A DNA stretch of 64,000 nt from Malachius bipustulatus (taxonomy: Eukaryota; Arthropoda; Insecta; Coleoptera; Melyridae): the NCBI GenBank assembly GCA_910589415.1, contig OU342638.1, positions 5,456,001-5,520,000 of the forward strand, read 5' to 3'. The first letter of the stretch is position 1. Every line of letters begins with the position of its first letter. The translations under genes were made by a program, and so were the position numbers. The notes under the pieces are model-generated. The model was not told where the DNA came from. It searched no databases and saw only the letters and a list, made by a program, of their open reading frames with translations. Positions 1 to 59,783 of the stretch are shown one piece after another.

Positions 1-835
1 TACTGTAGAATGTGAGGAAAATAATTCTATAAACTTTTTAGACTTATCTATCAAAATATTAAATAATCAGTTTGACTTTTCTGTCTATAGAAAACCAACA
101 CATACAAATATGACAATACCATATGATTCAAATCATCCAATTTCACACAAACTTTCAGCATATAATTCAATGATATACAGAGCTGTTACGATACCAAAAT
201 CAGTAAACAACTTTAACAGGAGAAATTTCTATTATCAAACAAATTGCAAAAGAGAATGGTTATCGAAAAACATTAATAGACGACTTATTACAAAAACTAG
301 CCATAAACCTCATTTATCCTCAACAAAACAATGAAATCAGAAAATATTCATCACTAACGTACTTTGGAAACATTTCAACACAAATATCAAGGATAATTTC
401 TAACACCACTACATTTTTCATTCAAATCTTTTATGAGCAATGGTTCTGTATTGCTGAATGCAAAGGAAAAGTTATCTAAATTACAGAAACCTGGAATTTA
501 TCGATTAAACTGTTCTCATTGTAATTCAGTTTATATAGGGCAGACTTGTAGAAACCTAGAAATTAGATACAACGAACACCTAAACTCTTACAGACTCAAA
601 CATCCAGAAAGATCAAATTTTGCAAAACACTTAATAGAAAACAAACACACTCTTAAACAAACAACAAAATTGAATTACTTCATCATTGTGATCATTATTT
701 TAAATTAAATTTTCTTGAATCTCTAGAGATCCACAGATATTTACATAATCAACAATACACAGTAATAAATGAACAGCTAGACACATATCGTTCTCCACTA
801 CTTGATTTTCTGCTTGATATCAATAACTAAGAAGT
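1..835 (+). pseudogene. Penelope-like element, 3' part: end of RT plus GIY-YIG endonuclease (5' part outside window)
   Basis: Read in three successive frames this is the C-terminal part of a Penelope-like (PLE) polyprotein. Frame 2 from base 2 to about 334 gives the end of the reverse transcriptase, including INFLDLSI, VYRKPTHTN, HPISHK and a later R-x(5)-P segment. Frame 1 from 433 gives a GIY-YIG nuclease: GIYRLNC, then VYIGQT, the conserved arginine in EIRYNEH, and a downstream FAKHL...H. Frame 3 continues HHCDHYFKLNFLE to a stop after FLLDINN near 828. The frame changes near 335-430 and 660-680 mean this copy is dead. RT followed by GIY-YIG is diagnostic for PLEs, which insert by target-primed reverse transcription at telomeric or internal sites. 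The following 180 bp hold a decayed hammerhead, as expected for a PLE terminal repeat. The rest of the element would lie to the left of the window. Confidence 0.88.
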
Positions 836-10700: not shown

Positions 10701-13700
10701 ATACTTTTTTTAAATATTTGGAAATATTCCTTTTTTAAAAGATTCATTTATTAAATCAAAGAAAATATTTGGAAAATTATTCAAAATTTGTTTGAAATTT
10801 TTTTGTGGGATTAAATCATAACCACTAGACATTTGTGGTTTCAAATTTTCTGCAAACATTTCATTATTTGTAATTTCAAATTAATAAAAACTACTTTGAT
10901 TTGGTGATTTGAATTTCATTAAAGCTAATCTTATATTTTCTGTTTCAATATTCGTTAAACTATTATTTGAAAATAGGTTAACAAAATAATTATTAAATAA
11001 ATTTGCAATTTCGACTTTTATCAGATATTATAGAATTATTATATTTTAAAATTCCTTCAATTAAATTATTATTCTTATCTTTTTGGGTTTTAATAAAATT
11101 CCAAATAGTTCTTGATTTATTTTTTGAATTAATAGTTTTGCTTTCTATGTAATTTTAGCAGTTTTTATAAATCTGATTAAAGTTTTTGAAAATTTTCAAT
11201 TCAGATAAACCAGAATTGAAAACAGATTTCTTATTAATTTGAATATTTGTAAAAAAATATCTAAGCATGTGCTACTAGACGAAGTTACTCTTGTTGGTTC
11301 ATTAATAATTTGATTTAGATTTAAGGACTTCATTAAATTCAGGAATTTTTTCTTGTGGTTATTTTTAATTTTGGGTAAGAAATCAATATTGAAATCTCCA
11401 CATAAAATTATTTATTTTTTTTTTTGCTGTAATTATTTAATTAATGAACTTTTTACAAACATGAAACATCAAACATCAAACAATATAAATATTAAAAAAA
11501 AATTATTGTTTGAACATAAATTTGTTAAAACAGTTTCTAGATTTAAAAAAAGTCAAATTTCTATTTAGACATGAATAAATGCACAAAATGAATATTTTCT
11601 TAAATTAAAGTTTTCAAAATTAAAAAAAAAAAATTTCATTTTCAGAAAGCCATGTTCAGATAAACAAATAATATCTGCTGTTTTTATATTAAATGAATAA
11701 ATTTGTATCAAAAAGGTCAAATTTTTTTAAAAATAATCCTTGAATATTTAAATGAATAATATTTCAATTTTCAATAACATTTGAAATTTTTGTTTTTGTT
11801 TTAAAAAATTATTTGAAATTTTTGATCATTTTAAATAATTTTTATTTAATTTAGGAAAATGAAATTTATTTATTAAAGAGCCTGTTGGCCAATTTTCCGG
11901 ATCTTTATATTTATCTTCAAGATTTATTGGAATTCCTACCTTAAATGAATTTATAACTTTTGATAATATCCTTATTCTTCGGATTTATAATTTCTACTGA
12001 ATAGTTTGCTTTTATTTTGTTGTTTAAAAATTCTAGTAAGTCTTCTTTTTTTGTGGTAGGTAGTTATAAATCTTGAAGCAAAGAACCAAATTTTTCTTGG
12101 AAGAGTAATTGTGTTATGTTTGCTACCTGATCCATGAAAAGACTTATTTTTAATTATATTAGTTTTTTCTGATTTAAATTCGTAATTGAATATGATTTTG
12201 TTTGTATTTTCATTATTTTCTTCATATTCAATAATATTAGCTTTGGTGGAAGTAGAGTTTGCAATATTATTTTCTCTGTTTTTTGGATTTCTTCTAACTA
12301 ATTTATCATCATTCATTTTTCTTAATAAGTTTACCAAATCAATATTCGAGTCTTTTAGAATATCTACTTTTCTTCCTAAATTTAATATACTTACTTGCTT
12401 TTAAACTATCGTTGCCTTCTAAAATACCATCAATTTCCTTCTTTATCGTGTCTTGAATTATTTTTGAAATTATGCCAGTAAAATTTATGTCTTCTAAAAA
12501 AAATTTCACTTCCATACCTATTGTTTATTGAGTTGAGTTTGACATTTTTTAATAAACTTCAAATTTATTGTTTATAAGTTACTGGGCGGAGTGCTAGAAC
12601 GCTAATTATTGATTTTAAATTGCAAATTTTGAAATTAGGGTGAATATTTTGAATGGTCTTTAATTTTTTATCAGTAATTAACTCTTCTAAAAGGGAGTAG
12701 AGTTTATTTCCAGCAATATCAGACCAACATTTTGATAATACAGGGCATTTTAAAATCAGTAATTATCTGGCAGATCTGTAATTATTAACGTTCTAGCACT
12801 CCACCGTCTCAATATTACAATATTATATTGGCCAATTTCAGTCTATACCAGTATATTTTCGTGTAGAAGAAACTTTAATAATTGTTTAGAACAACAAAGA
12901 ATCAAATAAATTTTTTCTTTAAAATCACTATTTTTAAATATAAAAGTTCAGAATAGAAAATACCGAATAGAGCATTGATTGAACTTTTTGACAATGTTTG
13001 TTTATTAACTTTTATATCATTAATTTCCAAGATATCATGGAAAATTTAATAAAATCACTTCTTATCTGCAAAATTTATAAAACAAAAAATGCAAAAAAAA
13101 ATATTACTAGAGATATCTGACCAAAAAAACTTGAGCAATTTAATTTTTTTTTTGTAAAAGGACTGCGCAGAATCCTTTTTGGAATTGTCTCCCAGTTAAA
13201 TTTGATGTAACTTTGGGGATGACCTCTGAAGATGGATTTTTTCTTTCATAAACTCAAGCATGTATTCTTAAATATTGGCCCCCTAATTGTTTTATAAAGA
13301 AATCTTGGACGGGCATTTGTTAAGATTGAAAAGCTAATTCTGTTGATGTAATTACATTCTGAATCTGTTGAGCTATCTTCGAGAAAATCGGGAAAAAGTT
13401 TTCAGTTTGTAGTGTCATTTTTGTAATTTTTGACGTTTTTAGATAATTGTTTAGAGATAATAATTATGTTTGCTTGTGAGATCAATCAACCTTATTTATG
13501 TTAGAAAATTTAAAGTTTACAGTGTCATAACTGTTAATGTGTGTAATTACTATTTCATTATTTGTTTAAGCTATAAACTAATGTTAATTGAGTTCACTGT
13601 TTTTGTAATAAAACCAAAACTAATGTTAAAGAAGATTAGGTCTAGATTACTTTTTACTCAACTTTATATCTATGAACTTATTTTTTCTTGAACTGTCCAC

Positions 13701-22700: not shown

Positions 22701-25700
22701 TCATAGTTTTCAATGAGCAGGTCACAGTCATCATTAAGGTTCATGACAAAGTGCTTTGTCTCTTGTTTAATTTTTTAAAATTTCCCAATAAATCAGAATT
22801 ATTAAATAAATTGTTTGGACTTTAATTATAATAATAACTATCACCTGCCAGTTAAAAACTATGACTAAATATTGATAAATTGTGACAGCAAAAGTCATCC
22901 AGAGAAAGTTAAGATAAAAAGTCATGACCACCTGGATGAACTTTTTCTCGGTTGTTTCTCAACCAATTTTGAATCTGAAAAATCATCTGAATAGACAATC
23001 GAATACTGGTTTTTAATATACAAAAATTTATACAGGGTGCTATTCACTTTTTTAAGGGTGGGGGCTGTAACTTAGGGGATGTTGGAGTGGGGGTTGTTTT
23101 CATGCTGTCATGTTATACAGCTTGAAAAATTATAATAATATGCCTTTTATTCGGCTCGATTATCTCAACCTGTATATGAGATATGGCCTGGTCAATTAAG
23201 TCTGGGACACCCGGTATATGCTCCTGTAGCAAGGTTGACGACCATTAGAGTACTTCTTTCTTTATATTTAGACTTTGATTTACTCGTTCAGCAGTTAGAT
23301 GTAAAGTCTACTTTTCTTTATGGATCTCTTAGTGAACCTGTATACATACAGTAGAAGCTCGATTATCCGAAGTAATGTGGACCGAACCCATTTCGGATAA
23401 GTGAAAGTTCGGATAATACGGAGTTTTTTACGAATATATAAAATAATGTAGGCAGGTAAGTTACATGACTTTTTATTGTTAAAAACAACTCAACATAGTA
23501 ATAAATCTTCGTAATCAAATAAAAACATACATATTTGTGTACATATCTATATATGTACATATTACAATTTCGGATAATGCGGAGTATTTGAAGGCGCGCG
23601 TTTCGGATAACGCGGATGACTTGATTTTTCGTACAAATTTCGGATACGGACCACGATCGTTCCGGATAAAGCGGCGGTTTTAAAAATCAATTTTGTTCCG
23701 GATAAAGCGGATTCCGGATAATCGCGATCCGGATAATCGAGCTTCTACTGTATATGTATCTGCCAGAAGGTTTGGTAAGTGAAAATAAAAATTTAGTATG
23801 CAAGCCTAAAAGGGCGCTGTATGGCCTTAAAGAAGCAAGTAAATGTTGGTATGAACTTTTAAACATTATGTTAAAAGGTTTAGGTTTCGAAAGATCCAAA
23901 AAGTATTTCATGTCTATATTATAAGAATTTCATATTTTTATTAGTATATGTGGATGATCTTGTTTTATTTGCAAAACATGAGAAATATATCAATTTTTTG
24001 AAAGAAAAGTTATCAGAACGTTTTAAAATAAATAAATTTTGCAATGATAATAAAATAATTTTTTTAGGACTAGAAATTGTAAAAAGAAATGATGAACTCT
24101 TTATCAGTCAAAAGGATTTAATTAACAAAATATTGATAAAATTTGGTATGAATGATTGTAAAACAAGTAATCTGCCTATTGAACCGAAACTTTACCTAAA
24201 ATTTCATGAGAAGCAAGATGTTAATAATAAATCTGACCTAAATAATAAAATGTATCCTTACCGTGAGTTAATTGGCTCCTTAATGTATGTAATGCTAGGT
24301 TCCAGACCAGATTTAAATTTTTGTGTCACCTACTTCAGTCAATTTGAAAATTGTTACACAAAAGAACATTTTAATTTGAAAAATGTTTTACGCTATTTAA
24401 AGAAAACTGAAAATTATAGACTAAAATTTACAAAAAGAGTAAATCCTAACATTTCTTTAGTCTCTTTTGTCAACTCAGATTTCGCAAACGACAGAAATGA
24501 CAGAAAAAGCATGAGTGGATTTTTAATAAGAATGAACGTAAATGTTGTTTTCTGCAAAACTAAGAAACAAAATATTGTGGCTCTTTCTAGTACAGAGTCA
24601 GAGTTCGTTGCTCTCGCTTCATGTTATAATGGAAAGTTTGTTTTTATCTCAACTTCTTTCTGAGATTTTAAATATTAATGTAGAACCTATAACCACAGAA
24701 TAGATACAATCAGAAGCTAAACTCGCCGGCGGCGCCTTTGATCTTTTAGAGTCAAGCCACACCTCTAGCGGCCATTGCTTCAGAGTAGAAACGCAGGCCC
24801 GCCACCAGCCCGCCACAGAATAGGTACAATTCTATTCTGTGGGCCCGCATTCAAAACTAATGAAAGCTCATCTCAAATCATGGCGGATCTCTATGCGCCG
24901 AGTAGATGCGCCAACTCTGTATTTTTATTGAAGTTTATATTCTGATTGTACCTATTCTGTGCTATATTATTGCCCGTATTCACAAACGATAATTTCCTAA
25001 ATAATTACGTAATTAATTATATGAGTGAGATGGAGATATGCGGTTTTTTTTGCAACAGAATGAGATGGGGATAATTGATTACATAATTATTTAGGAAATT
25101 ATCGTTTGTGAATACGGGCATATGTATAATATATAATGAAGATAATCAATCGTGCATAAAAATATCATCAACATTAGAAACGAAAAGATCAAAGCACATT
25201 GATGTTGAATTTCATTTTGTCAAAGATTGTGTATTAAATAAAAAGGTTAAACTATTGTATTTATCAACACACGAACAAGTGGCCGATATATTTACAAAGC
25301 CTTTAGCGATTCCTAAGTTTAAATATTTTAGGGATAAGTTAAATTTATCTGAATTTTGAAGATAATATATTTTTGTAAACCTTTTGTAACAATGCAGAAT
25401 TGTGGGGGAGTATGAACATTGTTAATTATTAAGTAAATGACCACTTCTGCACTGGGTTACAAAGCGTACTTCCTGTTGTTGTTCTACAGGGTGAGTTTTT
25501 TTCAATGTTTAGTACAGGGATCTCGTAAACTACTGCAGTTAGAGGAACGGTTAAATGGGGAAAGTAGTGCAGTTTTATGAGGTTAATTCGAAACAGCTTT
25601 TGTTTTTTTGAAAATCTCCATGGCTTCCTAGATATTTAACATAAAGTAAATTCCGCGAATTTCTTTACACCGATATAGCAGTCTTATTATTGGGATTAGA

Positions 25701-36206: not shown

Positions 36207-36483
36207 TTTAGTTTTGCTTTTGAAAGAGAAAATTATGGCTCATTAACCTACCTATCGTTCGTACGCGTACCTATCTATATTCATATCTATTGCTATTCTC
36301 TCATACGTCTGTCTAGTCCAATGATTTACTAACCTCCTAGTCAGTAGTAGGACTAAACTAAAATTAACAGTTTATCCTACAGCAGTCCTACCTCCAATAA
36401 GTACATAATATTAATAATAAAATAACTGGGAACTGCACTAGGCAATAGGTAGTAAGTTATAGTTCAAAGAAAAGCTGAAGGTC
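36207..36483. other. Upstream flank of the zinc-finger gene
   Basis: AT-rich, no clear core promoter. Upstream non-coding exons are possible. Confidence 0.35.
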
Positions 36484-38094
36484 ATGATGAGTTTAAATGA
36501 GGGCAGTTATTACTATCCTTCGCTTCAACATCAGCAGGTGGAGAAAATGATCATCAAAACAGAGGCCTCAGATGATGATCAGTTTATTGAGTGCAAGCAG
36601 GAGGACTCCTTGCTACTCAACTCGGCGAAGTTGAAGTGTGAAGATGAACAAAATATTGATGCTGGCTGCGGGCCCTCTTCAAAATTAAATTATTTCGAGA
36701 ACACTTTTGAGGCACCTTTTCCAATAAAACAAGAACCCGAAGGCTCATCATTCTCATCAACCACGGCCTTGAAAGAAGATATTGACATTGAGGACCATAA
36801 ACTGGTATGGGAGCTGCTGACCAGGCGTCGTGGTAGTGTTGGAATTGTTAAGGGTGGATCCGATCGGTGTGACTCTGTTCAAGAAAGCGGGACAAAACAG
36901 GCACGATCTTCTGAAAGTAAGAGCGGAGGAGGAGCGAAGCTTAACTGTGCACATTGTCTTTATAAAACAAATCATAGATCTAATTTTATCAAACATCATA
37001 AGCGCATACATTCCAAAGATCCAGAAATGTACAAATGTCAGGAATGTTCCTATGAGACCAGAATTAAAAGTGTTTTGACCCAACACTGTAAATTTAACCA
37101 TTCAAAAGGCCCAGCAGAAATATACAAATGCGAGCAATGTTCATTTGAAACAGCAAGAAAAGATTATTTGATCAGGCATTATAAATGTAAACATTCAGAA
37201 GATGATGAATTGTACAAATGTGAGGAATGTTCATATGAAACCAGAATGAAAAGGTATTTGATCAAACATTATAAACATAAACATTCAAAAGACGTTGAAG
37301 TGTATAAATGTCAGGAATGTTCTTATGAGACGACATATAAAAGTGGTTTGACTGTACATCATGAACGTAAACATTCCAAGGATCCAGAGATGTACAACTG
37401 TCAGGAATGCTCTTACAAAACAAGAATTAAATGTAATTTGTTTCAACATCATAAATTTAAACATTCCACAGATGCAAAAGTTTACAAATGTGAGGAATGT
37501 TCTTACAAAACAAAAATTAAAAGTCATTTGACTACACATCGTATACGAAAACATTCAAAAGACGCTGAAGTGTACAGTTGTCAGGAATGTTCTTTTGAAA
37601 CAAGAAATAAACATTATTTGAGCCAACATTATAAATACAAACATTCAAAAGATCCTGAAATGTACAAATGTCGGGAATGTACTTATGAAACAAAATATAA
37701 AAGTGAATTGACCAAACATCATAAATGTAAACATTCCAAAGATGCTGAAATGTACAACTGTCAAGAATGCTCGTATGAAACAAGATATAAAAATAATTTG
37801 ACCAAACATCATAAATGGAAACATTCCAGAGATGGTGAAATGTGCAACTTGGAATGCTCCTATGAAACAAGGAAGAAAGATTTTCTGATCAAACATGAAT
37901 GTAAATATTCCAAAGAAGTAAAATTGTACAAATGTGAGCAGTGTCCTTTTGAAACAAAATATAAAGGTTTTTTGACCAAACATTGTAAATATAGACATTC
38001 AAAAGAAGTTAAAGTGTACAAATGTCAGGAATGTTCTTACAAAACAAAATATAAAAGTGTTTTGACCAAACATCATAAACATAAACATTCATAA
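36484..38094 (+). CDS. C2H2 zinc-finger protein, 13 fingers
   Basis: A 536-residue single-exon reading frame. Residues 1-150 are an acidic, disordered N-terminus with several SUMO-type motifs (IKTE, LKCE, IKQEPE). From about residue 153 there are 13 tandem fingers of form YKCxECSYETxxKxxLxxHxxxKHSKD, spacing CX2CX12HX4H, with the linker HSKDxExYKC in place of the classic TGEKP. Finger 11 is damaged (CNLEC and a missing second histidine). This finger type is common in large lineage-specific insect families of putative DNA-binding regulators; the target is unknown. The start is the first of two adjacent Met codons; a spliced upstream exon cannot be excluded. In-frame finger remains follow the stop (next entry). 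Confidence 0.88.
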   Translation: MMSLNEGSYYYPSLQHQQVEKMIIKTEASDDDQFIECKQEDSLLLNSAKLKCEDEQNIDAGCGPSSKLNYFENTFEAPFPIKQEPEGSSFSSTTALKEDIDIEDHKLVWELLTRRRGSVGIVKGGSDRCDSVQESGTKQARSSESKSGGGAKLNCAHCLYKTNHRSNFIKHHKRIHSKDPEMYKCQECSYETRIKSVLTQHCKFNHSKGPAEIYKCEQCSFETARKDYLIRHYKCKHSEDDELYKCEECSYETRMKRYLIKHYKHKHSKDVEVYKCQECSYETTYKSGLTVHHERKHSKDPEMYNCQECSYKTRIKCNLFQHHKFKHSTDAKVYKCEECSYKTKIKSHLTTHRIRKHSKDAEVYSCQECSFETRNKHYLSQHYKYKHSKDPEMYKCRECTYETKYKSELTKHHKCKHSKDAEMYNCQECSYETRYKNNLTKHHKWKHSRDGEMCNLECSYETRKKDFLIKHECKYSKEVKLYKCEQCPFETKYKGFLTKHCKYRHSKEVKVYKCQECSYKTKYKSVLTKHHKHKHS

Positions 38095-38520: not shown

Positions 38521-38956
38521 AGAAATGAATGCAGGTCGTATGAGCACACAAAGTGCCATTACTAGCCTGTTTAATGGGGTCGGAGTATTCCTCCATCGCC
38601 CTAATATTTGTCAAACTGGCAGTGCCTGAAACTCAATCAAAAGAGCTTCCATCCAAACAACAACAGAGCCACCAGAGTACCTGACCTGACCCCGGGGGTT
38701 TTCAGACATTAGACAACATCTTCTAGATAGTCCAGATGCAGCACACTGATGAGCCCCAATAGGGCGAAACACATGTCTGTGCTTGTTCTGTTACTTTGGT
38801 GGCTTTGTTGTTGTTTGGATGGAAGCTCTCTCGATTGAGTTTCGGGCACTGCCAGTATGACAAATGTTAGGGCGATGGAGGAATACTCCGACCCCACATA
38901 ACAGGCTAGTAATTGCACTTTATGTGATTTATACTCATACGACCTGCATTCATTGC
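38521..38956 (+). mobile_element. Fold-back element carrying a hammerhead ribozyme
   Basis: 38525-38690 and 38789-38956 are inverse copies (GAATGCAGGTCGTATGAG outer ends, CAAACAACAACA inner), separated by about 100 bp that hold a complete hammerhead motif. PLEs are known to carry hammerheads and can have inverted terminal copies, so this may be a PLE terminal fragment or a retrozyme dimer in inverse orientation. No protein domain seen. Confidence 0.72.
38733..38790 (+). ncRNA. Type-I hammerhead ribozyme motif, apparently intact
   Basis: Stem I is GCACA/TGTGC (38741-38745 with 38778-38782), extended across an internal loop by CAGA/TCTG (38733-38736, 38787-38790). Core CTGATGA at 38746-38752; stem II GCCC/GGGC (38753-38756, 38762-38765) with loop CAATA; GAA at 38766-38768; minimal stem III from A38769 to T38776; cleavage predicted after C38777. 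Every invariant core position is present. The internal loop in stem I opposite loop II is where natural hammerheads make their tertiary contact. Confidence 0.85.
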
Positions 38957-39563: not shown

Positions 39564-40589
39564 CTATGACGCTCTGGGAGCGGTGCATGAGCGGAGATGT
39601 CGATTCACGCTGATCTTGAATCGCTGTAGGTTGTATACTTCGGGAAACACGCCCTTTGGAATGCTATTCCAAAGTGATGCGGTTCTATACATAAAAGAAG
39701 TCTGAAATAGGGTGGTACGAGGTGTAACGAGCTGAACCTGATACGGATGAGCGTCTGCGGCTTGACGTGTATTTCTGCCCCGTCTTGTTCTTGGTGGGAT
39801 CAAGCGGGCCACGTCTTTTGAACACTTTCCATTAAAATATCTGTAAAACAGACTCAGGTCAGCTACTCTTCTTCGATGTTCGAGAGTGTCTAAATTCTTT
39901 GTCAAATCTGGGTCCTCAATCAAGTGGATGCCTCTTTTCTGGATAGAGTCGAGTAATCTCAGCGTATGTTTAGGAGCTGAGCTCCAAACGTGTGAGTAGT
40001 ACTCCAAGGATGGTCGGATTGGAGCCTTGTATAGGAGGAGAAGCTGTTGTGGTGTATAAAATTTCTTCGTGCGGAAGAGTGTTCCAAGTTTTTGAGAAGC
40101 ACTCTTCGCCAGACCTGCAATATGATCATGCCAAGACATGTTCGCTCCGAGGCTCACTCCAAGTAAACGAAGAGATGATGCTGGAGTAAGAGAGTGTCCC
40201 GCCATCACCATATCTGGCTCCAAAACGTTGGGCTTTTTGGAGAAGATGACTGCTTGGGTTTTTCCAGCATTAAATTGACCTTGATTTCTATCGCCCCAAG
40301 CTAAAATGTTATGTAAGTCATTGTTAAGTATGGCAACTTCCTGCTCCCTACGAGTCTGTGCGTCGATGGCAGATGTTCGCGCATCTAAGGTATAAGAAGA
40401 TATGAGTGTACTGTCATCGGCAAAACTGCATATTGGATTTTTTGTTGTTTCAAGCAAGTCGTTGATAAATATTAGAAAGAGAGTCGGAGATAAAATAGAT
40501 CCCTGAGGCACACCGGCATTGATGGAAAAGGTCTCAGAAAGAACTCCATCGACTGCCACCTGTAATAAACGATCTCCGAGATAACTCAT
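39564..40589 (-). pseudogene. LINE reverse transcriptase, C-terminal two thirds (open frame)
   Basis: A 341-codon open frame reads [49 protein letters not shown] (catalytic FADD), LGVSLGANMSWHDHI and a long C-terminal region with RTKKFYTPQQLLLLYKA, SIQKRGIHLI, HRRRVADLSLFYRYF and RTASLWNSIPKGVFP. This is the thumb and tail of a Jockey-superfamily element without RNase H. The missing front lies in the next entry, one frame away, so the copy is broken but young. Confidence 0.85.
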
Positions 40590-40890
40590 AAGCAGAATTT
40601 CTCAGGCATGCCATAAGCCTGCAGTTTTGCCAACAGTCCATCATGCCAGACAGGGTCGAAAGCTCTAGAAATATCAAGCGCAACCCCTCGAGACTCCCCA
40701 TGGTGCTCGATTGCGCCGTTCCACAGCTCAGTGACGTAGGTGAGAAGGTCACCAGTTGACCTCTGTTTGCGGAATCCGTATTGGCGGTCGCTGATTATAT
40801 TAGCTCCTTCCAAAGTACTTTAAAAGATGTTGGTTAATAGCTTTCTCCATAATCTTGGATATTACTGAAAGCATAATAATTGAACCCGCA
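40587..40890 (-). pseudogene. LINE reverse transcriptase, N-terminal piece
   Basis: Frame-shifted continuation upstream of 40589: ISDRQYGFRKQRSTGDLLTYVTELW, then ALDISRAFDPVWHDGLLAKLQAYG (RT motifs 2 and 3). The element is 5'-truncated near 40890. Confidence 0.84.
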
Positions 40891-45806: not shown

Positions 45807-47851
45807 ATATATATTTATTTATTTAGGTGTCTCAACATCAAGGTCATTGACACCGGAACATATAGGTAATTGACAATATTATATTTTTACAGAAGGTGAT
45901 AGATCTCTATTTTCTTGAGGAATTCTATTAGGTTGTATACTTTTGCGTCTTTCAGTTGGAGTATTTCGGCCAGTGTGCCATCTAGCTTGAAGTGGTTTCT
46001 ATGGATGTTGTACTTAGGGCATTGTAGTAGGATGTGCTTCACAGTGAGTTGGGTATTGCATGTTTGGCATACTGGGGGATTCTCGCCAGCCATAAGATAT
46101 TTGTGAGTTAGTAGTGAATGTCCTAGTCTCAGCCGTCGAATGATGGTTTCTGATCTTCTGTGTAACTGGGGTAATCTGGTATACTTTACTGTGGATTCTA
46201 CTTCGTGAGTTTTAGTGTTGATATTCTCCCAGTGTCGTTGCCATTCTTCATGTACCTTATTTTTGAAGTACAAAGTTAAGTCGTAATGAAGTTGGACTGT
46301 GGTTTCTTCTGGTAAGTATGCTGCATCTTTAGCCTCTTCGTCTGCTCTCTCATTTCCTGTGATACCTATATGAGATGGTATCCAGAGTATGGATATTGTT
46401 TTAAGGTGCATCTCGTGGAATCGGGTGCTTATATCCTGGATTTTGTTGACTAGTGGGTTGTTGCTGTATAACACTTCTATTGCATTTATGGCGGCTAGGG
46501 AGTCGGAGCAAATGACGGTATTATTGAGGTTGTTGTCTGTAGTATATTGGCAGGCCTGGAGGATTGCATACAGTTCTGCGGTGAAGACGGAGCTTTTGCT
46601 TGACAGTCGGAATTTTTGGACATGATCGTTGTGCACTATAGCGCAGCCTACACCATTCATATTTTTTGATGCGTCCGTGAATATTATATTATCATGTGTA
46701 TGTCCTTGAAGTGTTTGGTTATATTTGGATCTTATTAATTCTTTCGGGTATGCTTCTTTATTGTAGATTTTGAGTGAGGTATCAAGCGGCGGTATATTTT
46801 TGGTCCAAGGAGGTAGTGTTCCTGGTTCTATGGATGCTGTGGACATTAGGTTTATTTCGGATAACTCTGGTCTCATTAGTTCAGGTAGGGGTTGTGGAAG
46901 GTTGGGTTTATTCCAATATAGAGACTCATACGTTTTTCGGGTTGTGATTGTAAAAACGGGGTTTTTGGGGCAGGCTGATGTCCTAGAGATGTATGAGAGT
47001 GCCTGTGCTTTTCTTCTTAATCGTAGTGGTGGTTCACCTGCTTCTCTATTCATGCATTCCACTTGGCTTGATCTAAAGGCTCCAAGGGCTATTCTTATCG
47101 CTGTATTTTGAATCACATTAAGTGATCTGAGGGTGCGTGTACTTGCTGATGAATATACTACACATCCGTAGTCTAATTTGGACCTTATGAGGGCTCGATA
47201 TACCTTAAGCAAGACGGTTTCTTGTGCACCCCATTGTTGACTGGAGAGTGATTTCAATAGATTTATTTTTTCGACGCACTCTGTCTTCAGTTTTTCAATA
47301 TGTGGGCGCCATGTTAGTTTTTCATCAAATGTCAGTCCGAGGTATTTATACTGGGTAACAACTTCCAGAGTCTTTCCGTACATTTTTAGATTTTTAGGCC
47401 GTGGTGAGTTGGTCTTTCTAGTGAATCGTATTACTTTTGTTTTTTCGGGAGAGAAGGAGAAACCAGCGACGTTTGCCCACTCTTGGAGATCGTCGATGAC
47501 ACTCTGCAGGACCGCGCAGATAGTTTTCTGATTTCTGCCGCGAGAGTAAACAACTACATCATCTGCATATAGGGTGCCGACGGCGGGAGTTGATAGTTTG
47601 GAGAATATATCATTTATTGCGACAAGTGTGCTGCTTAAGACAGACCCTTGAGGTACACCACTTTCTAGTGTGTGTGATGTAGATAGTGTTCCATTTGCTC
47701 TGACTTTGAAGGATCTTTTCGATAAAAAGTTCGATACGAAGGCCAGGAAATTGCCTTTCAAATTTAGCAGTTTTAATTTTTCTATAATTCCATGTCTCCA
47801 GGCAGTATCAAAAGCGCTTTTTATATCCAGAAATATGGCAGTCAGTTCTTC
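45807..47851 (-). mobile_element. 5'-truncated LINE with RNase H, flanked by a 41-bp target duplication
   Basis: The host repeat segment from ACACCAAAACGGTGACG to ..GTCATTTGTAT appears both at 45766-45806 and 47853-47893, identical over 41 bp. The 3' end (left) finishes in a (TAAA)n/(TA)n tail. The 5' end is truncated inside RT. Intact empty sites exist in the other two repeat copies. Confidence 0.9.
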
Positions 47852-47887
47852 TACACCAAAACGGTGACGATTTATGTATTGTGTCAT
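45887..47887 (-). CDS. LINE RT-RNase H open frame, 666 codons, start codon from target site
   Basis: The open frame begins MTQYINRHRFG, encoded by the duplicated target site, and enters LINE sequence at VEELTAIFLDIKSAFDTAW. It has GVPQGSVLS, LYADDVVVYSRG (catalytic YADD), a thumb with YKYLGLTFDEKLTW, a RNase H domain (IFTDASKNMNG, FTAELYAILQA, ICSDSLAAINAI, WIPSHIGITGNERADEEAK) and a C-terminal CX2C-H-C zinc motif (CQTCNTQLTVKHILLQC). Order and RNase H place it in the I/R1-like group. The N-terminal third of RT, endonuclease and ORF1 are absent, and a short deletion lies in TLVAINDI, so it is unlikely to be functional despite the long frame. Confidence 0.87.
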   Translation of the reverse strand: MTQYINRHRFGVEELTAIFLDIKSAFDTAWRHGIIEKLKLLNLKGNFLAFVSNFLSKRSFKVRANGTLSTSHTLESGVPQGSVLSSTLVAINDIFSKLSTPAVGTLYADDVVVYSRGRNQKTICAVLQSVIDDLQEWANVAGFSFSPEKTKVIRFTRKTNSPRPKNLKMYGKTLEVVTQYKYLGLTFDEKLTWRPHIEKLKTECVEKINLLKSLSSQQWGAQETVLLKVYRALIRSKLDYGCVVYSSASTRTLRSLNVIQNTAIRIALGAFRSSQVECMNREAGEPPLRLRRKAQALSYISRTSACPKNPVFTITTRKTYESLYWNKPNLPQPLPELMRPELSEINLMSTASIEPGTLPPWTKNIPPLDTSLKIYNKEAYPKELIRSKYNQTLQGHTHDNIIFTDASKNMNGVGCAIVHNDHVQKFRLSSKSSVFTAELYAILQACQYTTDNNLNNTVICSDSLAAINAIEVLYSNNPLVNKIQDISTRFHEMHLKTISILWIPSHIGITGNERADEEAKDAAYLPEETTVQLHYDLTLYFKNKVHEEWQRHWENINTKTHEVESTVKYTRLPQLHRRSETIIRRLRLGHSLLTHKYLMAGENPPVCQTCNTQLTVKHILLQCPKYNIHRNHFKLDGTLAEILQLKDAKVYNLIEFLKKIEIYHLL

Positions 47888-48935
47888 TTGTATTTTATGT
47901 TTTTGTCAGGGTGTATTTTTATCTAAAATCCTAAATGAAACGACGATATGATTTTGTATGTTTGACTCACGAATCGCAGCGTTAGACAACGACGCTTCAA
48001 TCTGTTGTATAGGTGATGTCTCCTTTTGGAATCGATTTTATTTATTTTGTATTAGTCTGGCTGGGGTGTGGAGTATTAACCGATTAGGTTTCTCCCATAA
48101 AAAAGGTCTAATTTATGTGTGTTTTGTTATGTCTTTTCTTTACAGGTACTAAACGGTTCGCAAAGACTAACGTTAAAATGACAGGTTACCATAATACAAG
48201 AGATTTAGTTCTCACCCCTCAAAGCTCAAGCAAATGCTTGATTCTAACATGTCGTCGCTTCATTGTATGTTTTTCATTGTAGGTTTTGCGCTTTACAGAG
48301 TCAGAGGTTGGTTATTTCAAGAGGTTTCTTTTTTTACTCTGACTATAAACTTGCGTAGGCGGAAACCCCTTTTGCAGGGTCATTCGTGTGAGTGTAGAGA
48401 TTCAATAACATTCAAATCAATTCGAAAGTCAATAAATCAATTCATTTTCAAAAGGGAAACTCTGTCTTTTAAATTAAATCTCCTATCTCTCAACAAAAGA
48501 CTGGCTCAAAGTATTTTCGTAGCGCTTTGCTATGAACGAACCAAAATAAGGTTACTACACACAACAACGTAAGGACCACCACCAGACAAAAAACTAGACA
48601 GATCACGAGCCAAGGTAAAACCACAAACACAGGTAAAAACCACGACCACAAACAGTTAGTAAGTAATGTTGGCCATTTTATTTGAAATCAGGGAGGGAGA
48701 ACTTTAAATTCAAACCAAACATTCAGGGCGGGAATTCAAACAGTCATTCATGACAGACAAGTTGACATTTCAAACGTCAAAGAGGTTCTTCTTTTTCAAA
48801 TCATTCAGTCTGGGGGCCACATTACTGAATTTGATGCGCATGACGCAGGACATCCATTTTAAGAGGTTAGGTAGGTTACATCACAGATTCTTTACCGTCG
48901 ACCAGGATGCAGGTTTTTAGGTAGGTTACACTACA

Positions 48936-51340: not shown

Positions 51341-52038
51341 TCTGGTGTGTTGTTTTAAAGTGAACGCTCTCAGAGAAGTTTTCGACAGTAGTTGTACATA
51401 ACCTAATTTTTTTTCAGTATTAAATACTTTTTCAATCACGCGAGTCGTGTAATTTCCCGTTCGTCCTTGAATGTTGATGTTATAATTTATTTTAATTCAT
51501 ATATAACAGCTTTCGGTCAGGAAATTAAAATTGATCTGAATATTAAACAAGTAGCAATTGTAGCTTCGTTTATAATAATTATAATATATCAGATTTTTAT
51601 GATGACTTCGAAGATAATGATGATGAATGTGACTCTGTACTTATTAGAGGCTTATATTTTATGTTTTCCATTTTAGGTTTTATAGGTATTTTAACAAAAC
51701 TATCCACATAACAAATATACCTAATTAAAACCAAAAACGGACGGTGGAACAAACAATAATTATTAAATCGAACTTGAATCAGATTCTATTTCTACATCTC
51801 CATTCTCCAATAATTTCTAACCTAATAATATTTCATAATTTCATATTTAATAAATCACGAACCACTCGTTTTTGCTACTGCGCATGACGGGCGTTTTTCA
51901 TCTATATAATTTCTTGGGATGAAAAGTTGTCTACCGTGCGATCACATGGCGTTCATTCTGGACGATGTAACTCTTTACCCAATGTTATTATGAACGGGTT
52001 AGGACGTCGCCGTGTGCACACGGCGTTTATTATGAACG
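51341..52038 (+). repeat. Tandem unit A (uninserted, ~700 bp)
   Basis: Runs from TTCTGGTGTGTTG to the GTTTATTATGAACGTACCCC end. The following unit B starts with the same CTGGTGTGTTGTTTTAAAG and ends the same way at 59989. Unit A therefore shows empty sites for four insertions in unit B. The inverse relation of its end to 51285 suggests it is itself a TIR element that was tandemly duplicated. No gene. Confidence 0.82.
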
Positions 52039-53679: not shown

Positions 53680-54744
53680 CCCAGGCAGCAAGGAATGTTC
53701 ACTGAATGTTCCCTAAATGTTCACCGAACATTAAACATTGCTCTAATGTTAAACAGACTTTCCGAATATTCAGGCAACGTTCAGATTCTAATGTTCGTTT
53801 TCAGACCTTCAATAAACATTCATTGAACATTAGATACTGAACATTCAAAATGCAATGTTTAGTTAACATTCATACAATGTTTAAGATGAAATGTTTATTG
53901 CACGCAATTACATACAGGTACACTGACATCAGGTAAATAACATATACCAAAAAAAAATTGGAAAATTACATGCTGAAACGAAAATATTTGGCTTAAAAAT
54001 TGATAAAAACCAGAATTATACTTATTATAATTATGTATTACAACGAGGTGTTGCGCGCGCAGCTCTCTTGTCTATTGCATTCCCAGTATTCTCTTATTGT
54101 CTTGTGTCCAAGTCCGCTATTCTGGCTCTGGCATTTCATCTTGTTTTTCTAAACTATGAATATACCTATGTATAGGTATAAAAGTCACAATAAATTATCA
54201 GCAAGCTAAGTATTTTATGCTTGTCTGGTCGGAGAGAGAAGGTGCAGAGAGTGCAAACTAATCTAATTCTTCATCCCAGGTATTATAGGTAGGTAGGTAT
54301 TATGATGTAGACAGGAAGAAGAAAAACAACACGGAAGAGCAAATGTGACCTTATAATAATAATAATAATTTATATTGTTCACTGATGGATTGATAAATGG
54401 AATACACCTACATAGTAAGTATTATTTTTTTCAGCTTTTCAGCTCCATATAGGTAATACAATTCTTAGTGATGATCAGTTTGATAAAAAAAAAACAAACA
54501 TTCACTCAACATTTAAAACTAATATTCATTGAATGTTTACGAATCTGTCGTTTTTCACATTGGCTGAATGTTCATTTTTGAATGTTCAGTAAACATTCAT
54601 TTATAAATGTTCACTAAAGCTTAAATCTGAACATTCACTGAACATTTAAAACTAACCTTCATTGAATGTTCACGAATCTGTCGTTTCTAACATTGGCTGA
54701 ATGTTCATTTTTAACATTCAGTGAATGTTCGATTGCTGCCTGGG
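53680..54744. mobile_element. CCCAGGCAGC-ended element rich in AATGTTCA motifs
   Basis: Ends CCCAGGCAGCAA / TTGCTGCCTGGG. The outer 200-250 bp at both sides consist largely of AATGTTCA, TGAACATT and ATTCACTGAACATT variants, many of them palindromic. Unit A shows the site without it (AAACAAGTAGCAATTG). Target duplication at most a few bases. The interior is non-coding; superfamily not assigned. Confidence 0.78.
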
Positions 54745-55181
54745 AAGGTAGCAATAATTGTAGCTTCGTTTATAATAATTATAATATAATGATGACTTCG
54801 AAGATAATGATGATGAATGTGACTCTGTACTTATTAGAGGCTTATATTTTATGTTTTCCATTTTAGGTTTTATAGGTATTTTAACAAAACTATCCACATA
54901 ACAAATATACCTAATTAAAACCAAAAACGAACGGTGGAACAAACAATAATTATTAAAAATAAATAAAAATAAATAAAAATAAAATAGCACGGTGGGTTCG
55001 GCTTTCGCCATAGGATGCAACCCCAGGCAGCTAAAACGCATGCCAACAACTGAGTGCAGTGCCTCCCGATGTGCGTATAAAGGTAGGATAGGCCTACTTC
55101 CAAAGTTTAACAAAAAGATGAACGACATATCGTAAAACGATACGTCATTCATTGATTTCATGCTGTGAGTCAGGGGTGGAA

Positions 55182-55226
55182 ATTGTAGACACGTGTTTCG
55201 TCCTAATTGGGACTCTTCAGTACAAT
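55182..55226 (-). ncRNA. Hammerhead ribozyme, array copy 1
   Basis: Minus strand: stem I ATTGTA/TACAAT (55226-55221 with 55187-55182), core CTGAAGA, stem II GTCC/GGAC with loop CAATTA, GAA, then stem III from ACAC/GTGT with virtually no loop, and cleavage predicted after C (55188), giving a 5' end UACAAU. All invariant core residues are present. The self-complementary ACACGTGT of stem III is like that of short-stem-III hammerheads that work best as dimers, which tandem copies would favour. Confidence 0.9.
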
Positions 55227-55497
55227 GTATCTTGCTAACACACAGCACAATCTTAGTCACTTAATAGTGAGCAAAATGATAAAAATAAATAAAAATAAAA
55301 TAGCACGGTGGGTTCGGCTTTCGCCATAGGATGCAACCCCAGGCAGCTAAAACGCATGCCAACAACTGAGTGCAGTGCCTCCCGATGTGCGTATAAAGGT
55401 AGGATAGGCCTACTTCCAAAGTTTAACAAAAAGATGAACGACATATCGTAAAACGATACGTCATTCATTGATTTCATGCTGTGAGTCAGGGGTGGAA

Positions 55498-55542
55498 ATT
55501 GTAGACACGTGTTTCGTCCTAATTGGGACTCTTCAGTACAAT
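55498..55542 (-). ncRNA. Hammerhead ribozyme, array copy 2
   Basis: Identical to copy 1, 316 bp further right. Confidence 0.9.
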
Positions 55543-55813
55543 GTATCTTGCTAACACACAGCACAATCTTAGTCACTTAATAGTGAGCAAAATGATAAAA
55601 ATAAATAAAAATAAAATAGCACGGTGGGTTCGGCTTTCGCCATAGGATGCAACCCCAGGCAGCTAAAACGCATGCCAACAACTGAGTGCAGTGCCTCCCG
55701 ATGTGCGTATAAAGGTAGGATAGGCCTACTTCCAAAGTTTAACAAAAAGATGAACGACATATCGTAAAACGATACGTCATTCATTGATTTCATGCTGTGA
55801 GTCAGGGGTGGAA

Positions 55814-55858
55814 ATTGTAGACACGTGTTTCGTCCTAATTGGGACTCTTCAGTACAAT
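55814..55858 (-). ncRNA. Hammerhead ribozyme, array copy 3
   Basis: Identical motif, 316-bp spacing. Confidence 0.9.
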
Positions 55859-56129
55859 GTATCTTGCTAACACACAGCACAATCTTAGTCACTTAATAGT
55901 GAGCAAAATGATAAAAATAAATAAAAATAAAATAGCACGGTGGGTTCGGCTTTCGCCATAGGATGCAACCCCAGGCAGCTAAAACGCATGCCAACAACTG
56001 AGTGCAGTGCCTCCCGATGTGCGTATAAAGGTAGGATAGGCCTACTTCCAAAGTTTAACAAAAAGATGAACGACATATCGTAAAACGATACGTCATTCAT
56101 TGATTTCATGCTGTGAGTCAGGGGTGGAA

Positions 56130-56174
56130 ATTGTAGACACGTGTTTCGTCCTAATTGGGACTCTTCAGTACAAT
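56130..56174 (-). ncRNA. Hammerhead ribozyme, array copy 4
   Basis: Identical motif, 316-bp spacing. Confidence 0.9.
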
Positions 56175-56451
56175 GTATCTTGCTAACACACAGCACAATC
56201 TTAGTCACTTAATAGTGAGCAAAATGATAAAAATAAATAAAAATAAAAATAAAATAGCACGGTGGGTTCGGCTTTCGCCATAGGATGCAACCCCAGGCAG
56301 CTAAAACGCATGCCAACAACTGAGTGCAGTGCCTCCCGATGTGCGTATAAAGGTAGGATAGGCCTACTTCCAAAGTTTAACAAAAAGATGAACGACATAT
56401 CGTAAAACGATACGTCATTCATTGATTTCATGCTGTGAGTCAGGGGTGGAA

Positions 56452-56496
56452 ATTGTAGACACGTGTTTCGTCCTAATTGGGACTCTTCAGTACAAT
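56452..56496 (-). ncRNA. Hammerhead ribozyme, array copy 5
   Basis: Identical motif; 322-bp spacing because the AAAT-rich tract is 6 bp longer. Confidence 0.9.
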
Positions 56497-56767
56497 GTAT
56501 CTTGCTAACACACAGCACAATCTTAGTCACTTAATAGTGAGCAAAATGATAAAAATAAATAAAAATAAAATAGCACGGTGGGTTCGGCTTTCGCCATAGG
56601 ATGCAACCCCAGGCAGCTAAAACGCATGCCAACAACTGAGTGCAGTGCCTCCCGATGTGCGTATAAAGGTAGGATAGGCCTACTTCCAAAGTTTAACAAA
56701 AAGATGAACGACATATCGTAAAACGATACGTCATTCATTGATTTCATGCTGTGAGTCAGGGGTGGAA

Positions 56768-56812
56768 ATTGTAGACACGTGTTTCGTCCTAATTGGGACT
56801 CTTCAGTACAAT
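56768..56812 (-). ncRNA. Hammerhead ribozyme, array copy 6
   Basis: Identical motif, 316-bp spacing. Confidence 0.9.
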
Positions 56813-57089
56813 GTATCTTGCTAACACACAGCACAATCTTAGTCACTTAATAGTGAGCAAAATGATAAAAATAAATAAAAATAAAAATAAAATAGCACGG
56901 TGGGTTCGGCTTTCGCCATAGGATGCAACCCCAGGCAGCTAAAACGCATGCCAACAACTGAGTGCAGTGCCTCCCGATGTGCGTATAAAGGTAGGATAGG
57001 CCTACTTCCAAAGTTTAACAAAAAGATGAACGACATATCGTAAAACGATACGTCATTCATTGATTTCATGCTGTGAGTCAGGGGTGGAA

Positions 57090-57134
57090 ATTGTAGACAC
57101 GTGTTTCGTCCTAATTGGGACTCTTCAGTACAAT
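57090..57134 (-). ncRNA. Hammerhead ribozyme, array copy 7
   Basis: Identical motif; 322-bp spacing. Confidence 0.9.
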
Positions 57135-57405
57135 GTATCTTGCTAACACACAGCACAATCTTAGTCACTTAATAGTGAGCAAAATGATAAAAATAAATAA
57201 AAATAAAATAGCACGGTGGGTTCGGCTTTCGCCATAGGATGCAACCCCAGGCAGCTAAAACGCATGCCAACAACTGAGTGCAGTGCCTCCCGATGTGCGT
57301 ATAAAGGTAGGATAGGCCTACTTCCAAAGTTTAACAAAAAGATGAACGACATATCGTAAAACGATACGTCATTCATTGATTTCATGCTGTGAGTCAGGGG
57401 TGGAA

Positions 57406-57450
57406 ATTGTAGACACGTGTTTCGTCCTAATTGGGACTCTTCAGTACAAT
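57406..57450 (-). ncRNA. Hammerhead ribozyme, array copy 8 (5'-most on the transcript)
   Basis: Identical motif, 316-bp spacing. The monomer upstream on the minus strand is truncated at 57665, so this is the first ribozyme a minus-strand transcript would meet. Confidence 0.9.
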
Positions 57451-57768
57451 GTATCTTGCTAACACACAGCACAATCTTAGTCACTTAATAGTGAGCAAAA
57501 TGATAAAAATAAATAAAAATAAAATAGCACGGTGGGTTCGGCTTTCGCCATAGGATGCAACCCCAGGCAGCTAAAACGCATGCCAACAACTGAGTGCAGT
57601 GCCTCCCGATGTGCGTATAAAGGTAGGATAGGCCTACTTCCAAAGTTTAACAAAAATTTTTTGTTAATAATTATTAAATCGAACTTGAATCAGATTCTAT
57701 TTATTTTCTACATCTCCATTCTCCAATAATTTCTAACCTAATAATATTTCATAATTTCATATTTAATA

Positions 57769-59783
57769 GACGCCGACAGTGATGACGTCAGTGGGCGGGG
57801 CCAACGGCCAAGGTTACATACAAACAAACGTTGTTTACAGGTTTGACGTTTACATGTTTGCCAGTTCTGATGGAAGTTGTCTCGTCAAACATCAAAAGCT
57901 CTAATGAGGTCTCTCATTAGTATGAATTCAAAAGTGTTGCAAATGTGACGGCATTTTAATCATTTTATATTTATACCCTTAGGATAACAACTATACTTTT
58001 CCCAATGAGATAATCATCCTTCAAATCAATCTGTAAATTAATAAAAAACAATTAACCCATAGCAGGATATTCTTCCCTCAACGCTAGGTATACAGGGTGT
58101 CCCATAATATGTGGGCAATCTCCCGGATTTGGGTAAATTTCATAAAAATAAATAAAAAAATAGCTATAAAATTAATTCCTCAGAGACACCCCTACAAAGA
58201 TATTAACTGATGAAGTTGAGGGTTGAAAATCAATTTATTGCAATAACTTTTTTATTTCTTGACCGATTTTGATAATTTTTGGTTTTATTTTGTATTATTT
58301 GGGACTGTTTAGAATAGTGTTTCATAATCTTTGGTAGCACATACATAGACCTCGGGATGGCATAACCCCCTCATTCACTTGAAAGAAAACAATAAAAATA
58401 ATAATTTTACAGTTCTTTAAGGTTAATTTTCTTTTTATTTGACATTTTTTACATGAAAAATGTATCTTTATTTATTTCGATAGAGCGAACCGTTATCGAG
58501 ATAAACGTCCTTCTAATAGGTGATGCGTCGCAGGAACTTTCTAAATTTCAAGTAAATTTTAACAAGATGGCTGATCTTTGACAGTAAATTGAGCAGGAAA
58601 CAAAACAATAACTTAATTAAATACACGTCAAATAGTGTCAAAGATTTCATTTCATGCAGAATTTCATGCAATTCTAACTGATTTTAAAATGAGTTACACA
58701 AACGCTGAATACGCAGAAAATCAGTTAGAATTGAATCTGCATGAAATGAAATCTTTTGACACTGACGTCTATTTAATTAAGTTATTGTTTTGTTTCCTGC
58801 TCAATTTACTGTCATAGGTCAGCCATCTTGTTAAAATTTACTTGAAATTTAGAAAGTTCCTGCGGCGCATCACCTATTAGAAGGACGTTTATCTCGATAA
58901 CGGTTCGCTCTATCGAAATAAATAAAGACACATTTTTTATTGTAAAAAATGTCAAATAAAAAGAAAATTAACCTTAAAAAACTGTAAAATTATTATTTTT
59001 ATTGTTTTCTTTCAAGTGAATGAGGGGGTTATGCCATACCGAGGTCTATGTATGTGCTATCAAAGATTAAGAAACACTATTCTAAACAGTTCAAAATAAT
59101 ACAAAACAAAACCAAAAATTATCAAAATCGGTCAAGAAATAAAAAAGTTATTGCGATAAATTGATTTTCAACCCTCAACTTCAACAGCTAATATCTTTGT
59201 AGGGGTGTCTCTGAGGAATTAATTTTATAGCTATTTTTTCATTTATTTTTACGATATTTACCCAAATCCGGGAGATTGCCCACATATTATGGGACACCCT
59301 GTATATTACGTTTTGTTTTTCATGCTGGCGGGTACCTACTGTTCCACGAATTATTTTAAGTTCCGCCTCGAACTCCATTGTTTCAACATGGCCAGATTCT
59401 ACAGCATTTTCACCTTTGGAAAATTCTTTGATTTCTTCGTAAAACAAACTGAGGATAAACTTGAAATTTTACGGGAACACCCAAATCAAACCACCCAATC
59501 AATAAATAAATACCGACAGACGTACTATAAACTATAACTAAATAAGTACCTAACTGAACTGCCTAATTTTAACGAAACTAAAATATTCAGTATTCATTCA
59601 CTAATGGCATCATTGGCATCACTATAATGACTTCAGTAATGGCTTCACTAATCACTTCGATGTCAATGGCCGTCAAACTTCAGGAAAACACACGACAACT
59701 GACAACAATGACCACGCAAAGGGTTTGTTTGTATGGAACCAGAACCGCTTAGCCCCGCCCTGTGACGTCACACTGACGGCGTC
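57769..59783 (-). mobile_element. Family X element, copy 2, with nested fold-back
   Basis: Ends GACGCCGACAGTG and complement GACGGCGTC, TA on both sides; unit A shows the empty TTTAATAAATC site near 51850. TGACGTCA lies at 57783-57790 and 59763-59770. Reverse-oriented relative to copy 1 at 34958. Interrupted by the fold-back at 58093-59301; without it about 800 bp. Non-coding. Confidence 0.87.
58093..59301. mobile_element. Fold-back with ~590-bp near-perfect arms
   Basis: CAGGGTGTCCCATAATATG at the left and its complement at the right, TA on both sides (58091-58092, 59302-59303). The halves are inverse almost to the centre near 58700, including CGATAGAGCGAACCGTTATC and CCGAGGTCTATGTATGTGCT-type blocks. 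No coding capacity. Family X copy 1 shows the empty site near 35473. Confidence 0.9.

Follow-up and report, generated by a model that had tools for sequence, protein, structure and literature searches.

Structure of the hammerhead array and its target site

We analysed a 64,000-bp stretch of the genome of the beetle Malachius bipustulatus (hereafter the window; contig C16:5456001-5520000, in a genome of 544 Mb and 52 contigs), which carries at 54958-57665 a head-to-tail array of hammerhead ribozymes between two exact copies of a 13-bp target sequence. The insertion proper is 2,708 bp long and comprises eight full, near-identical units, each 316 or 322 bp long, together with a partial ninth. 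Its features are given below in window positions, with unit coordinates (u) counted from the base after the ribozyme cut; sites 1 and 2 are two stretches of the unit at which array ends cluster, as described in the next section.

51553-51856, no strand: paralogous empty site, with the target 13-mer once, at 51755-51767
54945-54957, no strand: left target-site duplication AATAATTATTAAA, an exact match to 57666-57678
54958-57656, minus strand: long arm of eight full units and the partial ninth, delimited by unit spacing and identity; its sense 3' end is the left one, inside the T-rich tract, at a position that matches site 2 of other insertions
54958-54984, minus strand: predicted reverse-transcription start region of the long arm, in the site 2 tract, which is A-rich on the plus strand and starts at u201 after the cleavage site
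55182-55226, minus strand: type-I hammerhead 1 (RF00163, 53.5 bits), with a cut predicted from the alignment between 55188 and 55187
55498-55542, minus strand: type-I hammerhead 2 (RF00163 match)
55814-55858, minus strand: type-I hammerhead 3 (RF00163 match)
56130-56174, minus strand: type-I hammerhead 4 (RF00163 match)
56452-56496, minus strand: type-I hammerhead 5 (RF00163 match)
56768-56812, minus strand: type-I hammerhead 6 (RF00163 match)
57090-57134, minus strand: type-I hammerhead 7 (RF00163 match)
57406-57450, minus strand: type-I hammerhead 8 (RF00163 match)
57521-57656, minus strand: partial ninth unit, the 5' end of the arm lying at u72, directly on the 3' side of a long hairpin predicted at about u36-70
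57657-57665, plus strand: putative short second arm TTTTTTGTT, opposite in orientation to the long arm and ending at site 1, assigned from the sites defined in other insertions
57666-57678, no strand: right target-site duplication AATAATTATTAAA, an exact match to 54945-54957

The initial annotation of this stretch had proposed eight minus-strand type-I hammerheads in head-to-tail units of 316/322 bp and suggested a covariance-model check. Indeed, cmscan with the Rfam model Hammerhead_1 (RF00163) matched all eight full units on the minus strand at 53.5 bits each (E 4e-11), above the gathering cut-off of 34 bits, and chance hammerheads were ruled out by these E values. The window holds nine Hammerhead_1 matches at gathering score, eight of them from the array. 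The hammerhead core is conserved, and stem III, as read by eye from the alignment, consists of two base pairs beneath a tetraloop; thermodynamic folding of the hammerhead alone gave no information (z -0.15). The unit starts are spaced by 316, 316, 316, 322, 316, 322, 316 and 316 bp, the first 290 bases are identical in all eight full units, and the two lengths differ by a 6-bp step within an A-rich tract. Such steps were sporadic, apparently as 313/319 in another array (C3:43036252-43043781), and look as if the polymerase slips in the A/T-rich tract. The G+C content over the array is 36-40% (2-kb bins), and the only open frame of at least 150 amino acids that reaches into it (54718-55260, minus strand) continues out into the left flank. 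To the right of the last unit, nine extra nucleotides stand ahead of the right duplication.

The target 13-mer occurs four times in the window, namely in the two duplications, in the empty site at 51755, and at 10985. When the two flanks were joined with one 13-mer between them, they matched 51553-51856 at 288 of 292 aligned bases without a gap at the junction; two internal indels (10 and 5 bp) both lie away from it, and the core differs by about one substitution. Since the flanks match an empty site with a single 13-mer, the block is an insertion, and both the 13-bp duplication, with its exact copies just outside the array, and the uninserted paralog 3 kb away were borne out as first described. 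We regard the insertion as young because the filled and empty copies are nearly identical, with the qualification that this similarity dates the duplication of the site and not the insertion itself. Assembly collapse or artefact was set aside, as the contigs are of chromosome scale, the match to the empty site is close, and sister arrays follow the same rules.

By every feature testable in sequence, the element is an animal retrozyme, apparently of the known non-LTR (long terminal repeat) kind. According to the accessible text of Cervera and de la Pena 2020 (PMC7229834), these elements share short tandem units of low G+C content, type-I hammerheads, target duplications of more than 4 bp and many copies, and the 316/322-bp unit of the window falls within the animal retrozyme range of about 150-450 bp. 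Plant LTR retrozymes are likewise hammerhead-bearing, non-autonomous elements with RNA circles, but differ in their type-III hammerheads, their LTRs, primer-binding site and polypurine tract, and their 4-bp duplication, as far as described in the accessible parts of PMC7229834 and PMC7761336. The retrozyme-like reading of the initial annotation thus stood, whereas the two-ended structure described below had been missed and the nine nucleotides at the right end had been left unexplained.

Arrays of two families end at two fixed sites

The window unit has at least 398 matches in the genome. A genome-wide hammerhead search gave 73,468 candidates, 74 of which were scored; 57 of these lie on contig C1 and 17 elsewhere. 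The C1 matches are accounted for by a second family, family A, which is about 78% identical to the window unit. We fetched the loci around 56 of the 57 C1 matches (L009-L048), the last one (34809076, L054), and five of the 17 matches on other contigs (L049-L053). A BLAST comparison of the 40 C1 loci L009-L048 with one real unit delimited 56 family A arms. For the family of the window array, 19 loci including the window were found among the matches listed, and the ends of the other 18 were fetched.

The sense 3' ends of the family A arms fell into two narrow stretches, u76-84 in 29 of the 56 arms and u222-237 in 21, with six ends elsewhere, while only two and one of the 56 5' ends, respectively, lay inside these stretches. 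Site 1 lies about 79 nt past the ribozyme cut, directly after the long predicted hairpin, and is preceded in the window's family by TTTTTGTT (u72-79). Site 2 lies about 226 nt past the cut, inside the T-rich tract.

Sixteen of the 40 family A loci have two arms, all of them head-to-head and joined at the centre by their 5' ends. Their outer ends combine site 1 with site 2 at 12 loci, site 1 with site 1 at none and site 2 with site 2 at one (L038), while three have an odd end (L019, L029, L031). In the window's family, the 18 fetched loci include eight two-armed arrays, all with the minus-strand arm at the left and the plus-strand arm at the right, so that all 24 two-armed retrozyme loci (16 of family A and eight of the window's family among the matches listed) are head-to-head. 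Seven of these eight arrays pair site 1 with site 2, and the same seven carry a 12-13-bp duplication; the eighth, at C7:31.59 Mb, combines site 1 with an odd end at u125, and no duplication was found there. The ten single-arm loci of this family have their 3' end inside the fetched stretch in eight cases, each at one of the two sites. A few bases of microhomology or filler were seen at many of the junctions between arms. The arms of the window's family reach up to 13 full units among the matches listed, and the locus concerned (C16:25788931-25797369) is nearly symmetric: 13 full units face each other head-to-head from either side, and almost every one has 100% identity with the unit of the window array.

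When the two families were pooled, site 1 was paired with site 2 at 19 of the 20 two-armed loci that have both ends at a site, against the 48.7% expected if the ends were chosen independently (p 1.3e-5). A stricter count, in which raw BLAST ends had to fall within the family A intervals, gave 17 of 18 (p 4.8e-5), and family A alone gave 12 of 13 (p 0.0013). Two raw site 1 ends, u85 and u87, stand just outside the family A interval where the match runs into the duplication, and trimming places them at about u78-81. The pairing count leaves out the short second arms recognised by eye at L015, L030, L031, L039, L043, L049 and L054. This paired-end rule for array entry is seen in both sampled families and is the new part of the finding. 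In the accessible main text of PMC7229834 the words "inverted", "orientation" and "head-to" are absent and no fixed ends are described, and we found no description of head-to-head or two-site retrozyme insertions in the open-access literature, subscription papers being largely outside the search.

The initial annotation had left two possibilities side by side, the integration of a multimer at once and the expansion of an inserted monomer. In the latter case, unequal exchange or slippage during replication would have enlarged the array between its duplicated ends; identical units are also what a recent expansion would leave, and the 316/322 variants show slippage in the A-rich tract. However, seven of the eight sister head-to-head arrays carry a 12-13-bp duplication and both fixed ends, which tandem growth does not yield, and the single core substitution or so that separates the flanks from the empty paralog speaks in the same direction, though it dates the duplication of the site rather than the insertion. 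We therefore hold later growth to be very improbable, and the question appears largely settled in favour of the multimer. The added view that a resolved insertion is unusual did not hold for this genome, in which an exact duplication was present at 30 of the 43 loci examined and the unit recurs at least 398 times.

The window array as a probable unequal pair of arms

The left end of the window array is site 2, and the last eight of the nine extra bases at its right end are TTTTTGTT, exactly those that precede site 1 in the window's family. By composition, this 8-mer is expected at about 7e-5 per place, and it has 26 copies in the 128,000 positions of the window. The array thus fits the two-site rule as an extreme case, its site 2 arm measuring 2.7 kb and its site 1 arm 9 nt; it is from the sites of the other insertions that we infer this second arm. 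Similar short second arms were recognised by eye at L030, L031, L039 and L049.

A different origin of head-to-head arms, and of the palindromic right end of the window array, would be hairpin self-priming of the first complementary DNA (cDNA), which has been proposed for Penelope elements from their palindromic junctions (accessible text of PMC3846280). Both arms of the window array do end at u72, as such priming would have it. Self-priming, however, would not bring an arm to a second fixed site, and the 5' coordinates of the two arms coincide in only two of the 16 two-armed family A loci and in one of the eight junctions of the window's family. This rarity speaks against self-priming as a rule, and we judge it very unlikely to have produced the arms.

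Target duplications and the nick motif

An exact duplication delimits 30 insertions (27 of the 40 family A loci, L049, L054 and the window), and 13 loci without a clean exact one were dropped (L009, L012, L015, L018, L019, L026, L034, L035, L040, L041, L044, L046 and L047). The duplications measure 12 bp in 11 cases, 13 bp in 12, 14 bp in three, and 9, 10, 11 and 17 bp in one each, and they are 81% A+T, as against 61% in the adjacent 12 bases. The first base outside was G at 16 of 29 site-2-priming nicks and at 15 of 29 site-1-priming nicks (31 of 58 sides; L038 is left out of this oriented count), followed by pyrimidines. The excess of G among non-A bases, a count which corrects for the removal of some A's by maximal matching, was significant (p 4.5e-7). 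At the target of the window array, the bases are G-T-T beside one nick and T-C-G beside the second.

In addition, 12 of the 18 fetched loci of the window's family gave a duplication (the remaining six had none or were cut by the fetched stretch), and G was the first outside base on 18 of their 24 sides (p 7e-7), or on 14 of 18 when three doubtful duplications, two of low complexity and one of 9 bp, were removed. The presence of one motif on the two strands suggests that a single endonuclease cuts them both. Such a symmetric motif would fit a dimer, not the nick of an apurinic/apyrimidinic (AP)-type endonuclease of a long interspersed nuclear element (LINE).

A LINE with an AP-type endonuclease could otherwise have inserted the retrozymes by ordinary target-primed reverse transcription, the inverted arms being products of LINE twin priming. 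Two LINE-type reverse transcriptase frames are present in the window, duplications of 12-14 bp lie within the LINE range, and 5' inversions are a product of twin priming. The first-strand nick of a LINE is asymmetric, however, whereas the retrozyme nick motif is the same on both strands; moreover, the second start is fixed rather than scattered, and the ends are paired as site 1 and site 2 at 19 of 20 loci. We consider the LINE route improbable. Extrachromosomal DNA circles or a rolling-circle DNA transposon would also yield identical tandem units, but the 12-13-bp duplications, the two fixed ends and the head-to-head polarity misfit Helitron-type insertion, which is not known to make a duplication, and this source seems to us exceedingly remote.

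The template of the arrays

The arrays run through the ribozyme cut site, and the template was therefore either circular or an uncut multimer. Across 20 insertions, with the T-rich tract excluded, units differ by 1.1% within one insertion and by 2.8% between insertions, and there was zero mismatch among the units of L009 and across both arms of L025. This unit identity would fit one template per young insertion, without proving a circle.

At L033 (about 2211) one arm starts exactly at the ribozyme cut (u1), and at L031 (about 2455) a short arm jumps to about u320. These two arms hint that some templates are ribozyme-cut linear RNAs.

Resident Penelope-like elements share layout and stagger

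At its left end, the window contains a broken Penelope-like element that spans 1-830 and retains two coding pieces in different frames.

2-331, plus strand: C-terminal piece of a reverse transcriptase
487-708, plus strand: GIY-YIG endonuclease piece of the same broken element (PF01541, E 4.9e-6)

We take the first piece to be a Penelope reverse transcriptase, although Pfam gave no reverse transcriptase match for it. A hammerhead-like stretch was noted by eye at about 955-995. With the reverse transcriptase piece as query, 911 candidates were obtained in the genome, and of the 150 that were scored many lie in long open frames. Among these 150 matches, the table shows 12 opposite-strand neighbour pairs within 4 kb, all with the minus-strand copy at the left and the plus-strand copy at the right, and tandem copies 2,698 bp apart also occur. 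Ten pairs were fetched, and both ends were recognised in seven and a single end in the other three. In all seven resolved insertions, one end carries a tail of about 41 nt that the opposite end lacks, and the duplications measure 12, 12, 13, 13 and 15 bp in one family (P1) and 12 and 12 bp in another (P2). GIY-YIG frames are present in both families, that of P2 scoring under Pfam's own cut-off. Minimal hammerheads were seen by eye in the 3' regions of L095 and L111, in the pseudo-LTRs of both Penelope families; Rfam gave no match for these by-eye hammerheads.

These features recall published Penelope-like elements with pseudo-LTRs. The accessible text of PMC3846280 describes rotifer Penelope elements with pseudo-LTRs and a head-to-head inverted arm, and that of PMC11167929 a lizard Penelope protein which in vitro cuts both strands, extends each of them and has two adjacent internal start sites. 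In these two sources, such elements share with the retrozyme insertions the head-to-head arm, partial tandems, an optional tail at one outer end and AT-rich targets, and the cutting and extension of both strands in vitro and the two internal start sites (PMC11167929) are likewise Penelope features. The retrozymes differ in having no known protein and in start sites about 147 nt apart, as against 30-40. Penelope elements are named in the accessible text of PMC7229834 only as a strong candidate for retrozyme mobilisation.

Other features of the window

Between 38519 and 38959 there is an inverted repeat with arms of 140 and 26 nt that are 90-96% complementary, and a weak type-I hammerhead (38740-38783, plus strand, 35.3 bits) lies near its centre; it is perhaps another foldback retrozyme family. 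This ninth hammerhead and the broken Penelope-like element had both gone unmentioned in the initial annotation. To the right of the array, 58089-59305 forms a large near-palindrome, in which 58089-59165 matches 59305-58229 inverted at about 93%. An open frame of 543 amino acids with many C2H2 zinc fingers occupies 36463-38094. RVT_1 frames lie at 39564-40601 and 45887-47905, one of them with RNase H, and read as LINE-type from their Pfam matches, and an RVT_2 piece at 23884-24663 reads as copia-type from its Pfam match.

Proposed mechanism and its meaning

Since resident Penelope-like elements have the same layout and stagger, Penelope-type machinery most likely copies the retrozyme RNA in. 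We thus think it likely that a Penelope-type reverse transcriptase and endonuclease copied retrozyme RNA, in circular or multimeric form, straight into a nicked target. The enzyme would nick an AT-rich target on both strands, with 12-13 bp between the nicks, and the two freed 3' ends would later become the target duplication. One strand would prime cDNA synthesis at site 2, in the U-rich tract some 226 nt beyond the cut, and the other strand at site 1, some 79 nt beyond the cut and just past the long hairpin; the two cDNAs would be joined end to end. A long run round the template would give identical head-to-tail units; in the window, the site 2 arm would have run 8.4 units and the site 1 arm 8-9 nt.

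In its most specific form, which may equally prove right or wrong, this would be a double rolling-circle target-primed reverse transcription: an enzyme dimer would hold one ribozyme-made RNA circle at two unequal sites, nick both strands of a palindromic AT-rich target, and extend one cDNA from each site round this single circle until the two are joined. That a Penelope protein acts, that the template is a circle and that both starts lie on one RNA is what we infer.

Several observations count against this interpretation. By BLAST, 24 of the 40 family A loci are single-armed, so that two-ended entry is not universal; some of these have a short second arm by eye, and several of their 5' ends are plain. 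Six of the 56 arm ends lie at neither site, and one two-armed locus pairs site 2 with itself. Both window arms stop at u72, beside the hairpin, and self-priming could account for this right end taken alone. The units are unlike in some insertions (7.5% mismatch in L015 and 6.0% in L024), and a linear multimeric RNA accounts for the arrays no less well than a circle does. A start-site sequence common to the retrozyme and the 3' regions of P1 and P2, the two families compared, was not found: P1 shares only the hammerhead 12-mer CGAAACACGTGT and P2 no word of at least 10 nt, and the start-site spacing is about 147 nt in the retrozymes as against about 41 nt in the resident Penelope-like elements. 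Finally, G is the first outside base on three of four sides in P2 (two insertions only), which fits the retrozyme motif, and on one of ten in P1, which does not (Fisher p 0.04 between the two counts); the target-motif link to P2 is weak and only a hint, four further single ends offering no usable test.

On the mover of animal retrozymes, this genome offers structural evidence in the paired fixed ends and in the stagger and head-to-head layout that retrozymes share with the resident Penelope-like elements. The proposed mechanism would explain the one-step appearance of satellite-like arrays. If its double rolling-circle form is true, a single event gives head-to-head arrays of dozens of identical units, and the pairing of the two sites would correspond in retrozymes to the tail of Penelope elements. 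The exact cDNA start sites are predicted and can be tested with purified enzyme, and the genome supplies a large number of natural products of a retrotransposition pathway that is poorly understood.

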